Source: Tidjanibacter sp.
Lineage (GTDB): Bacteria > Bacteroidota > Bacteroidia > Bacteroidales > Rikenellaceae
DNA: 64,000 nt
Direction: 5' to 3'
Assembly (NCBI GenBank): GCA_017396085.1
Contig: JAFQNC010000001.1
Span: forward strand, 1 to 64,000
Shown here: positions 6,174 to 52,625 of the stretch, in pieces
How positions within the stretch are numbered: the stretch's first letter is position 1
How the letters are laid out: every line of letters starts with the position of its first letter
Position numbers and translations under genes: made by a program
Notes under the pieces: model-generated
The model's database searches: none
Told to the model about the DNA's origin: nothing
The model's input: the letters and a program-made list of their open reading frames with translations, nothing else

Positions 6174-6755
6174 ATGGCAGTACCTTACAGACCGAAACCA
6201 ACCTATCCGCAGCGTCCTCCTCAGGGCCCACAGTCCAAGCAGCAGGGCGAGCATCGCATCAATAACCAAATTACCGCACCTCAGGTGAGGGTGGTTAGTG
6301 ATGAACTTGAGGGTGCTCAGGTGATGTCAATCAAAGAGGCACTCCTTTTGGCCGACCAGATGGAGATGGACCTCATTGAGATTTCGCCCAAGGCCGACCC
6401 CCCAGTGTGCCGCATTGCCGACTATCAGAAATTCCTCTACCAACAAAAGAAGAAGGCCAAAGAGATTAAGGCCAAGCAGGCGAAGGTGGTAATCAAGGAG
6501 ATACGTTTTGGTCCCCAGACGGACGACCACGACTACAACTTCAAGTTGCGCCACGCTCAGAACTTCCTTCAGGAGGGAGCCAAGGTTAAGGCTTATGTCT
6601 TTTTCCGTGGTCGCTCGATTGTTTTCAGCGAGCAGGGCCAGATTTTGTTGCTTCGTTTTGCCACCGACCTTGAAGAGTATGGCAAGGTTGAGATGATGCC
6701 GAAGTTGGAGGGTAAGAGGATGACTATGATGTTGGCGCCGAAACCCAAAAAATAA
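6174..6755 (+). CDS. infC: translation initiation factor IF-3
   Basis: IF-3 binds the 30S subunit, keeps it dissociated from 50S and monitors initiator tRNA and start codon. The 193-residue protein has the N-domain opening [14 protein letters not shown], the linker [23 protein letters not shown], and the C-domain [26 protein letters not shown] proline/glutamine-rich extension of about 25 residues precedes RINNQI. An ATG is used at 6174, unlike the AUU start of enterobacterial infC; an in-frame ATT exists three codons upstream but need not be invoked. Genes for L35 and L20, which normally follow, are absent; repeat hairpins begin six bases after the stop. Confidence 0.95.
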
Positions 6756-6760
6756 AAAAA

Positions 6761-7007
6761 ACGCAGATTGCGGGTGAATTTTGCACCGCACTTCGATAGG
6801 CGAGTTCCTCATTTGCGCAAGCAAACTGCGGACTCGCCTTCTTGTTTGGCACAAAATTCACCTCGCACTTTGCATTTTTCAAAAACGCAGATTGCGGGCA
6901 ACTGCTGCGTCATACTGCGATAAACCTCCTCCTCATTTACGTTAAGTAAACTGCGGAGGAGGTTTTCTTGTATTCCTTGCATTTGCACCGCACTTTGCGT
7001 TTTTTTT
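6761..7007. repeat. tandem hairpin elements type A (6761-6879) and type B (6885-7007)
   Basis: Two imperfect palindromes of about 120 bp sit directly after infC. Type A has outer arms GGTGAATTTTG and CAAAATTCACC, a middle stem GGCGAGTTCC/GGACTCGCC and an inner stem TTTGC/GCAAA. Type B has middle arms CCTCCTCC/GGAGGAGG and outer ends CGCAGATTGCGG and CCGCACTTTGCG followed by T7. The same A-B tandem recurs after ntpK (52021-52262), and a type B copy follows hom. Arm changes between copies are compensatory. They may act as transcript ends or 3'-UTR stabilisers; no protein is likely. Confidence 0.8.
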
Positions 7008-7525
7008 ACCGCTACCAAACGTCAGAAAGAACCCCAATCAAAAACACACAAAACAGGCAACGCCTGCGCACTTTGCGTTTTTTTATGGTCCAACGTCTTT
7101 TTTTAAGGCCCTTAAAGCCCTTAGGGCCATTAAAGTCCCTTTCTGCCCTCTACCACTCACGAGTATCTTTTTTAATACCCGTGCCTTCCGACTACTCCTC
7201 CCCTAAGTTAGGGGAGGTGCCCAAAGGGTGGAGGGGTCTGTGGGCTTGTGATTGACAAACCCCCTCGGCTTTCAGCCACTCCCCCTAACTTAGGGGGAGA
7301 GTGGCTTGGGGGAATTGAGTCGCCTCGCACTAACGTCCAACGTCTAACGTCTTAACGTCTTTTTTAGGGAGTTTAGGGAGTTTAGGGAGTGTAGGGAATG
7401 TAGAGAGTTTAGAGAGTGTATAGGCTCTATCCCTAACCTCCCTAAGCTCCCTAACTTCCCTTTCTTGCTCTTCCTGCTCTTTCTGCCTTAAACTTGGGGC
7501 GGTTGGCAACTACCGAGATTACTTC
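7008..7525. repeat. non-coding repeat mosaic between infC and the DUF2007 gene
   Basis: No gene is recognised. The stretch contains a truncated type B end near 7050-7086 and an array of 9-bp units of the AAGGCCCTT family (about 7099-7140). It also has two palindromes: CCTCCCCTAAGTTAGGGGAG (7197-7217) and CCACTCCCCCTAACTTAGGG, running 7276-7304. A GGGAGTTTA 9-mer array (about 7367-7415) is complementary to a CTCCCTAAC-type array (about 7427-7460), so it could fold into a long stem. Similar modules recur in at least six other gaps of this window. Confidence 0.7.
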
Positions 7526-22717: not shown

Positions 22718-23905
22718 ATGAAAAAAGAGATTAAGATTGGTCTGTTTGGCTTTGGTAGCGTAGGGCGAGGGCTCTACGATGTGCTGGGCGCAGTGGAGGG
22801 TAAGGATATTACCATCCGCCGCATCTGCGTGCGCGATTTGAGCAAGGATAGGGGCGTGTCGGCCGAGTTCACCGACCAGCCCGACCGCATCTTCGAGGAC
22901 CCCGAAATCAATATGATTGTGGAACTCATTGACGATGCCGAAGCCGCCTACCGCATCGTGCGCCGTGCTTTGGAGGCCCACCTGCCCGTGGTGAGCGGCA
23001 ACAAGAAGATGCTCGCCTACCACCTGCCCGAACTCATTGAACTGGGTAAGCAGACCGCCACACCCTTCCTCTACGATGCTTCGGCTTGTGGCAGTATTCC
23101 CGTAATTCGCAACCTTGAGGAGTACTACGACAACGACCTGCTGGTGTCGGTGAAGGGTATCCTCAATGGCTCCTCCAACTTTGTGCTCTCCAAGATTTTC
23201 AACGAGAATATGACCTACGACAAGGCGCTCCGCTTGGCGCAGGAGTTGGGCTTTGCCGAGAGCGACCCCTCGCTTGACTTTGACGGCTGGGACTCGCTCT
23301 TCAAACTCGTCATCCTCACCATCCACGCCTTTGGTATCTATGTGGCTCCGGAGAAGATTTTCCGCTATGGTATCTCCACGATGAACGAGGCCGACATCCG
23401 CTTTGCGAGCGAGAAACAGAGGCGCATAAAACTTGTGGGCCACGTGGAGAAGAAGAACGATGGGGGTGTCTACCTTTGGGTTGTGCCCCAACTCATTTCG
23501 AGGGACAAATACATCTATAGCGTTGAGGACGAGTTTAATGGCGTGGTAATCAAGGGTCGCTACTACTACAAGCAGTTTATGTTTGGCCGTGGGGCAGGTG
23601 GCCATCCCACGGGTGCAGCCGTGTTGAGCGACATCACCGCCTGCAAGTACGACTACCGCTATGAGTACAAGCGTATGAACTCCGGTCTTGACATTCGCCA
23701 CACCGATGATGTGTGCCACCGCATCTACTTCCGCTACCGCACCGAGGAGGACCGCAACCTGCTGAAATTCCAACTCATACGTGAGCAGTACACTTCGGGC
23801 GAGTGGAACTATGTTGTGGGCGATGTTTGTTTGTCCGACCTTGTTGCCGTGAAGGATTCTTTAGCGGGGAGGGATATATTCATAGCGGCCTACCCTTGGA
23901 ATTAA
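22718..23905 (+). CDS. hom: homoserine dehydrogenase
   Basis: Reduces aspartate semialdehyde to homoserine with NAD(P)H. The 395-residue protein has the nucleotide-binding motif GLFGFGSVGRGLYDVL, the substrate-domain motif YDASACGSIPVIRNLEEYY, KGILNGSSNFVLSKI and the catalytic-lysine region ESDPSLDFDGWDSLFKLVIL. The C-terminus is longer than the minimal enzyme but lacks a recognisable ACT domain, so feedback control is not evident. As third gene of metY-metX-hom it supplies homoserine to MetX. Its stop codon is followed almost at once by a type B hairpin element. Confidence 0.93.
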   Translation: MKKEIKIGLFGFGSVGRGLYDVLGAVEGKDITIRRICVRDLSKDRGVSAEFTDQPDRIFEDPEINMIVELIDDAEAAYRIVRRALEAHLPVVSGNKKMLAYHLPELIELGKQTATPFLYDASACGSIPVIRNLEEYYDNDLLVSVKGILNGSSNFVLSKIFNENMTYDKALRLAQELGFAESDPSLDFDGWDSLFKLVILTIHAFGIYVAPEKIFRYGISTMNEADIRFASEKQRRIKLVGHVEKKNDGGVYLWVVPQLISRDKYIYSVEDEFNGVVIKGRYYYKQFMFGRGAGGHPTGAAVLSDITACKYDYRYEYKRMNSGLDIRHTDDVCHRIYFRYRTEEDRNLLKFQLIREQYTSGEWNYVVGDVCLSDLVAVKDSLAGRDIFIAAYPWN

Positions 23906-24264
23906 AAAATGCACAATAGCGGGCAACTGCTGCGTCATACTGCGACAAACCACCTCCTCATTTGCGTTTAAGCAAACTGCGGAGGTGGTTTTCTTGTATT
24001 CCTTGCATTTGCTTCGCTCTGTGCATTTTTTTTAGCACCACGACCAAAAATCACAAAACGGCCTGTGGCCGCTGCGGACTCGCCTTTTCGTTTGGCACAA
24101 AATTCCCCTCGCTCTCTGCATTTTTTACTGCTTTCAAACGTTTGATAGCCCCACTGCCAAAAAACACAAAACGGCCTATGGCCGCTCCTCATTTGCGTTT
24201 AAGCAAACTGCGGAGGTGGTTTTCTTGTATTCCTTGCATTTGCCTCGCTCTCTGCATTTTTTTA
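23906..24264. repeat. type B hairpin element followed by partial A and B copies
   Basis: A full type B element (about 23909-24032) begins directly after the hom stop, with middle arms CCACCTCC/GGAGGTGG. Its outer arms are GCACAATAGCGG and CGCTCTGTGC, where other copies have CGCAGATTGCGG and CGCACTTTGCG; the changes keep the pairing. A right-half type A fragment lies at about 24078-24127 and a right-half type B fragment at about 24184-24264. Each fragment is preceded by ACAAAACGGCCTNTGGCCGC. No coding sequence is supported. Confidence 0.8.
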
Positions 24265-51546: not shown

Positions 51547-52014
<468 letters not shown>

Positions 52015-52020
52015 AAAAAA

Positions 52021-52262
52021 CGCAGATTGCGGGCGAATTTTGCACCGCACTTCGATAAGCGGCTCCTCATTTGCGAAAGCAAACTGCGGGGCCGCTTTCT
52101 TGTTTGGCACAAAATTCCCTCCGCACTTTGCATTTTTCAAAAACGCAGATTGCGGGCAACTGCTGCGTCATACTGCGATAAACCCCCACCGCATTTGCGT
52201 GAGCAAACTGCGGTGGGGGTTTTCTTGTATTCCTTGCATTTGCCTCGCACTTTGCGTTTTTT
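52021..52262. repeat. tandem hairpin elements type A (52021-52137) and type B (52144-52262)
   Basis: The same A-B arrangement as after infC. Type A has middle arms AAGCGGCTCC/GGGGCCGCTT and type B CCCCCACCGC/GCGGTGGGGG, both different from the infC copies but still complementary. Outer ends CGCAGATTGCGG and CGCACTTTGCG with a T run are kept. The element begins six bases after the ntpK stop and may end the V-ATPase transcript. Confidence 0.85.
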
Positions 52263-52625
52263 ATTTCTTCCAAACGTCAGATAGTGCTCCGAGTAGAAAT
52301 GGGGAAAGCGTCATTCTGACGCCCTTGCATTTGCCTCGCACTTTGCGTTTTTTAACGTCTAACGTCTTTTTTAAGGGCCTTAAGGGCCTTAAGGGCTTTA
52401 AGGCCGACTATGGCTACTAGGAGTGATAGTGACGATAGTCCTTCTTCCTATTCTTCTTATCCTGCCTAGCAGACCTAGCAGACCTAGCAGACCTAGTTGC
52501 CCCAGTTGCCCCAGTTGCCCCAGTTGCCCCAGCCTCCCTGCTTGCCCTTTCTTGCCCTTTCTTGCCCTTCCTGCCCTTCCTGCCCTTTCAATAATTTTCC
52601 ATTTTCCATTTTCCATTGTCAATTT
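52263..52625. repeat. 9-mer arrays between ntpK and glyS
   Basis: No gene is seen. The stretch holds AAGGGCCTT units (about 52372-52405), then AGCAGACCT three times and AGTTGCCCC four times (about 52466-52530), then TTGCCCTTTC/TGCCCTTCC units to about 52588, and TTTTCCA units to 52615. All arrays have a period of 9 or nearly 9 bases although the unit sequences differ. Confidence 0.8.

Follow-up and report, generated by a model that had tools for sequence, protein, structure and literature searches.

Palindromic repeats that abut stop codons in Rikenellaceae and probably serve as gene 3' ends

We analysed a window of 64,000 nucleotides (G000:C20:1-64000) from a draft genome of 2.02 Mb that is 95% complete, in which the genes infC, hom and ntpK are each followed by long hairpin elements (Table 1). 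All copies described in the initial annotation were found, namely types A and B after infC and ntpK and type B after hom, and the arm changes that it quoted between copies read as written in an alignment of the copies. Types A and B are forms of a single imperfect palindrome of about 124 nt. Their start had been placed 3-6 bases past the stop codon, which is not the case: the A-run begins at the stop, and the TAA often forms the first three bases of the palindrome.

Table 1. Genes and palindromic elements of the window
Feature	Position	Strand	Remarks
infC (IF-3)	6174..6755	+	TAA stop 6753-6755; Pfam IF3_N and IF3_C; sequence
Type A hairpin element	6756..6879	+	adjoins infC stop codon; T-run at end
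Type B hairpin element	6881..7005	+	in tandem with type A after infC
Truncated copy	7020..7084	+	small hairpin CAGGCAACGCCTG fused to element right arm GCGCACTTTGCG and T-run
hom (homoserine dehydrogenase)	22718..23905	+	TAA stop 23903-23905; Pfam
Type B element	23903..24031	+	hom stop codon is palindrome start (TAAAAAATGCACAATAGCGGG / CGCTCTGTGCATTTTTT)
Two truncated right-half copies after hom	24032..24263	+	A-type, then apex and B-type right half
ntpK (V-ATPase subunit K/c)	51553..52014	+	TAA stop 52012-52014; Pfam ATP-synt_C
Type A element	52015..52137	+	adjoins ntpK stop codon
Type B element	52139..52262	+	in tandem with type A after ntpK
Truncated copy	52300..52353	+	GCGTCATTCTGACGC hairpin fused to B right half and T-run

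Truncated right-half copies trail each of the three arrays, those after hom being fused to small perfect hairpins (CGGCCTGTGGCCG / CGGCCTATGGCCG). Across the array tails (7020-7084, 24032-24263 and 52263-52353), right halves of varying length are fused to short perfect hairpins (GCGTCATTCTGACGC, CGGCCTGTGGCCG and CAGGCTGTGCCTG) that have the spacer ACCGCTNNCAAACGTCAGATAGCACC..CGACCAAAA in common, and the join point varies but comes after GC. Short tandem repeats are present at 7100-7140 and 7363-7416 of the window (AAGGCCCTTAAAGCCC type, and a nine-base TTTAGGGAG) and also just past most arrays of the genome, and a 48-nt inverted repeat around CTCCCCTAAGTTAGGGGAGG (7194-7302) was found again near several other genome copies.

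The source genome holds about 45 full-length sense copies. A DNA search yielded 76 matches, counting partial and antisense ones, and one that used a covariance model of 27 full copies yielded 73, palindromes matching in antisense too. The covariance model added a second subfamily (L280-L284) with other outer arms (AGAAGCCGTCTAACAAGG / CTTGTTATACAACTTC) and an unchanged apex; the copies at L275, L276 and L278 have unique outer arms and the same apex as the rest of the family. Members of the second subfamily (G000 C12, C27, C32, C15 and C14) are without a T-run, lie near stop codons and are followed by a common GGTGTGTC-like motif. As a pattern, the apex occurs 43 times in the source genome, and with the pattern reversed 0 times. 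The covariance models of Rfam gave no match at gathering score in the window, and when nine loci were scanned permissively no match fell on the elements, so that on these searches they belong to no known Rfam RNA family.

The apex, CCTCA-(stem)-CTGCGG, which contains a T.C mismatch and one bulged C, was present in 77 of 200 sampled Rikenellaceae genomes, all of them drafts in which many contigs stop at element copies and relatives are not independent samples; those relatives that are named are Rikenellaceae MAGs from ruminant guts, a number of which bear the label Tidjanibacter. Within one genus, pattern matches ranged from 0 to 72 per genome and were patchy between close species. Homogeneous amplification is recent in G596 and G597, and independent, more homogeneous expansions were found in one Alistipes-related and one Bacteroidaceae-labelled MAG. 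Beyond Rikenellaceae, a 395-genome sample of the phylum gave a single occurrence (G330), which resembles coding sequence and was rejected as an element. Neither the Alistipes-type core nor the element found a match in collections of plasmids, phages and E. coli. Viral contigs of phages or prophages (L163, L166-L171 and L173) have a stable hairpin that contains the apex as CCTCACGTAC..GTACGCTGCGG and CCTCATGTAC..GTACACTGCGG, six of these contigs being one conserved locus, and the genome of a gammaproteobacterium, Pseudoalteromonas (G594), has two apex copies (L324 and L327) with stops 45 and 54 nt upstream, a spacing like that in Rikenellaceae; on so few cases, deep homology with the Pseudoalteromonas and phage copies is not established.

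The five window copies folded as RNA with z-scores of -7.0 to -9.3, no shuffle being equally good. Over 27 copies of the source genome we counted 114 double-changed cells, against 36 +/- 7 after re-dealing the 3' letters, cells that are not independent events, since A and B differ as blocks and part of the covariation is the exchange of whole paired blocks. In the same copies, 96.2% of paired cells held standard pairs (85.8% when re-dealt), double changes occurred at 17 of 35 pairs, and shifting the partner by 1-3 columns abolished the signal. Two further counts are less exposed to block exchange. For 46 distinct inner-arm pairs from across the genus, a mean of 6.65 of 8 positions paired, against 4.75 when re-dealt, with a maximum of 5.39 in 2000 re-deals. 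In the apical stem, 230-231 of 231 distinct sites were paired at each of four positions, of which two barely vary and the first and fourth hold most of the information, the variants including TTTA/TAAA, TTTG/CAAA, CTTA/TAAG, CCTA/TAGG and CATA/TATG. Genome-wide covariation, for which the initial annotation had proposed a test, is strong, and the absence of excess that would have spoken against it did not occur. Its reading of the covariation as selection on a folded RNA or cruciform is supported, with the reservation that part of the covariation is block exchange and that arm-to-arm templating could yield some of it without selection on the RNA. A scan for the apex that left its unpaired letters free again gave CCTCA/CTGCGG most often, at 44 of 70 sites, with roughly a dozen of the 70 read in antisense. 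The conservation of these letters amid changing arms speaks for recognition or a function and against simple upkeep of the palindrome.

To locate the elements relative to genes, we counted stop codons as the ends of open frames of at least 90 codons, used in place of gene calls, and found a stop 44-57 nt 5' of the apex in 27 of 39 first-in-array copies in the source genome, in 48 of 68 in sister Tidjanibacter genomes and in 40 of 74 at other named Bacteroidales loci, against 2.1-2.5% of random positions and 1, 1 and 2 copies in the mirrored controls (opposite strand, other end). The preference for stop codons that had been claimed is therefore borne out, and placement is stricter than had been noticed, the scattered placement that would have contradicted it having failed to appear. 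In Tidjanibacter, 70 of 75 stops at this spacing are TAA, and the element can supply this codon: in two relatives the element comes after a TAG that ends secA, in the source genome secA runs directly into the element's TAA, and infC orthologues end in TAA in 8 of 8 cases with an element and in 2 of 10 others. In some copies the stem takes in the last codons of the host gene. Copies that have the stop inside the arm show a right arm complementary to these codons, as for infC in G017 and for the orthologous genes at L174 and L216 (...ELNKILAKKQK*). Comparing the CDS tail with the right arm over 161 copies showed a weak overall effect (182 of 5000 permutations were as high), and we rejected templating of the right arm by the CDS tail as a general rule, the effect being confined to copies with the stop inside the arm.

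Alistipes and Bacteroidaceae relatives show looser placement: their copies lie 0-35 nt beyond the stop, often with a second, terminator-like hairpin behind them, so that in these relatives the role of terminator may not belong to the element itself. At L036 (137-208), and 5' of the copies in L004 and L263, we observed sub-threshold matches to the Bacteroides FopS/BTnc231 sRNAs, the element beginning right after the T-run of the putative sRNA's terminator; a stop codon would thus not be obligatory. BTnc231/FopS was rejected as the RNA family of the element itself, the matches falling on the sRNA just upstream of one copy.

We then compared the orthologues of infC, ntpK and hom, which carry either an element or an ordinary terminator and very rarely both. 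Among 29 orthologues scored element-free, one of which (L191) bears a variant element, 24 had an ordinary short-loop terminator in the first 130 nt after the stop. Among 16 element-bearing ones 2 had one, in both cases overlapping element sequence; the 130 nt scanned correspond to about one element, so that these counts describe displacement from the usual place rather than absence everywhere downstream. The simple scan does not call full element copies. In the 420-520 nt downstream of the infC, ntpK and hom sites, no ordinary terminator further out was judged convincing. The elements also turn over at fixed sites: L012, with a CDS 98% identical, has type A in the source genome and type B in G007, the arrays behind ntpK differ between close species whose CDS is 99% identical, and at one G007 site the basal stem is the sole remnant. 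Identical arm types were found again at unrelated genes, from which it follows that arms travel with the element; travelling arms and locally matched arms must both be explained. Neither element-bearing versus element-free orthologous sites nor homogeneous copy sets revealed a target-site duplication, in a comparison that lacks a clean empty site as the old terminator is gone as well.

On balance we favour the view that these elements are a non-autonomous palindromic repeat family that recombines and spreads between genes, serves as gene 3' ends and takes over the role of the terminator. A copy would be transcribed with its upstream gene and fold into a hairpin of about 124 nt. Its variable basal stem would run from the A-run at the stop codon to the T-run; above this would lie a middle stem of A or B type and an inner stem, both variable as well, with the conserved apex at the tip. 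The basal stem and T-run would act as an intrinsic terminator and 3' cap in place of the gene's ordinary terminator, so that the transcript would end at the element. Pairing would be kept by selection for this 3'-end function, giving the covariation, and recombination between copies would give the block exchange; with arms swapped as matched blocks and copies expanding into local arrays, the sequence could change fast with pairing preserved. Taking the repeats as working 3' ends is the most economical account, because it explains together the stem and T-run, the polarity, the abutment on stop codons and the exclusion of ordinary terminators. A 3'-UTR stabiliser or terminator and a non-autonomous mobile element had been proposed as options; both fit, and function and mobile origin need not exclude each other, while the Y1/REP route suggested for the latter fails.

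A purely selfish, MITE-like palindrome, moved by some recombinase or transposase that targets the 3' ends of transcription units, where it does little harm and any terminator effect is incidental, is in our view rather unlikely. The outer arms do form the terminal inverted repeats of a MITE, and the patchy presence within one genus, the amplification in G596 and G597 and the copies behind an sRNA terminator T-run instead of a stop codon are all as such an element would have it, but ordinary terminators are missing at element sites and not simply moved downstream, and pairing survives many arm changes.

For the CDS-matched arms, the most interesting alternative is templating of one arm by the other. 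A mobile palindrome would then target stop codons and form its outer stem with the host gene, its right arm becoming complementary on arrival to the sequence surrounding the stop codon, so that each gene receives a tailor-made terminator without a HUH transposase; we hold this to be improbable, and over the copies tested the effect is weak and limited to a subset. A purely mutational origin of the covariation, by template switching between arms (quasipalindrome correction) and gene conversion between copies with no function, is a doubtful proposition too. The blockwise arm changes, the tendency of right-half arrays toward the local arm type and the right arms complementing the host's last codons at L141, L174, L216 and L253, as one-arm templating predicts, are in line with it; arm correction should, however, erase the T.C mismatch and bulged C of the apex, which is instead the commonest form, and element-free orthologous genes mostly bear an ordinary terminator instead. 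Very unlikely, in our assessment, is a site acting at the DNA level, a cruciform or protein-binding apex that would serve to organise the chromosome or take up DNA, with gene 3' ends as a safe harbour: a DNA strand could take the same fold, and the fixed unpaired letters recall a protein-recognition hairpin, but the near-absolute polarity to the upstream gene, with 1-2 mirrored copies per set, is not needed by an orientation-free site.

Hardly credible, finally, are REP/RAYT-type elements moved by a Y1 (HUH) transposase, which these many extragenic palindromes with a conserved bulge resemble, given their length, the lack of a GTAG or CGTC foot and the distribution of PF01797. Running the transposase search that had been suggested, we found 0 Pfam matches to PF01797 in the source genome and matches in 4 of 200 Rikenellaceae relatives, all four with zero element copies; within Pfam detection limits, a Y1/REP transposase was thus rejected as the mover. 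A requirement for reverse-transcriptase-based spread was also rejected: RVT_1 is present in G000, G018 and G011 and was not found in most element-rich members of the genus (e.g. G009, G017, G007 and G010). No mobilising gene was identified among the candidates examined, Y1 and RT.

Terminators in bacteria are generally regarded as products of local evolution. In this lineage, housekeeping genes appear to have had theirs replaced by a repeat family that is in exact register with the stop codon and switches type quickly at fixed sites. Two questions can thereby be tested: do intergenic palindromes spread by virtue of working as 3' ends, and what copies REP-like elements in the absence of a HUH transposase? 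In a literature search for the apex sequence the matches listed were unrelated, and one for Alistipes repeats or terminators gave nothing relevant; we did not find described an exact stop-codon registration combined with stems containing coding sequence, nor a cross-genus apex.

Like intrinsic (Rho-independent) terminators, the elements consist of a G+C-containing stem and then a T-run at the gene end, the two kinds very rarely sharing an orthologous site, but they are much longer than the textbook form, are repeated and have an apex conserved across species. With REP/BIME moved by RAYT (TnpA-REP) and with CGTC-tagged REPs they share extragenic palindromes, conserved unpaired letters and clustered copies. 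REPs are 20-40 bp with a GTAG or CGTC foot (PMC3733652), whereas the elements measure about 124 nt, have the feet AAAAACGC/GCGTTTTT and variants, and lack a Y1 transposase. A GTCATTGCGAGCC repeat resembling CGTC-tagged REPs was observed near the element array in the downstream flank of L008.

The nearest known kind is the YPAL/ERIC/REP-type intergenic palindrome: like YPAL and ERIC, the element is an imperfect palindrome present in many non-coding, intergenic copies, which turn over between relatives. ERIC (IRU, RU-1) is a multi-copy, intergenic, 127-bp imperfect palindrome of enterobacteria with no known mover, and the likeness lies in similar size, imperfect palindromy, multiple copies and intergenic position. 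ERICs are enterobacterial and have 5'-TA-3' ends (PMC2229807). A search of 5,426 E. coli genomes with an Alistipes-type core of the Rikenellaceae family gave no match. YPAL (RU-2), of 168 bp and found in Yersinia and Erwinia with variable target-site duplications, is described as lying closely 3' of stop codons and over terminators. This long palindromic intergenic repeat has been recently mobile, its targets adjoin or span dyad symmetries, and it possibly influences the stability of upstream transcripts (PMC2229807). YPAL is the nearest functional parallel, as a long, mobile intergenic palindrome with a proposed effect on upstream mRNA, from which the Rikenellaceae element differs in its length of about 124 nt, in a stem that starts at the stop codon itself and in the coding sequence that some copies include.
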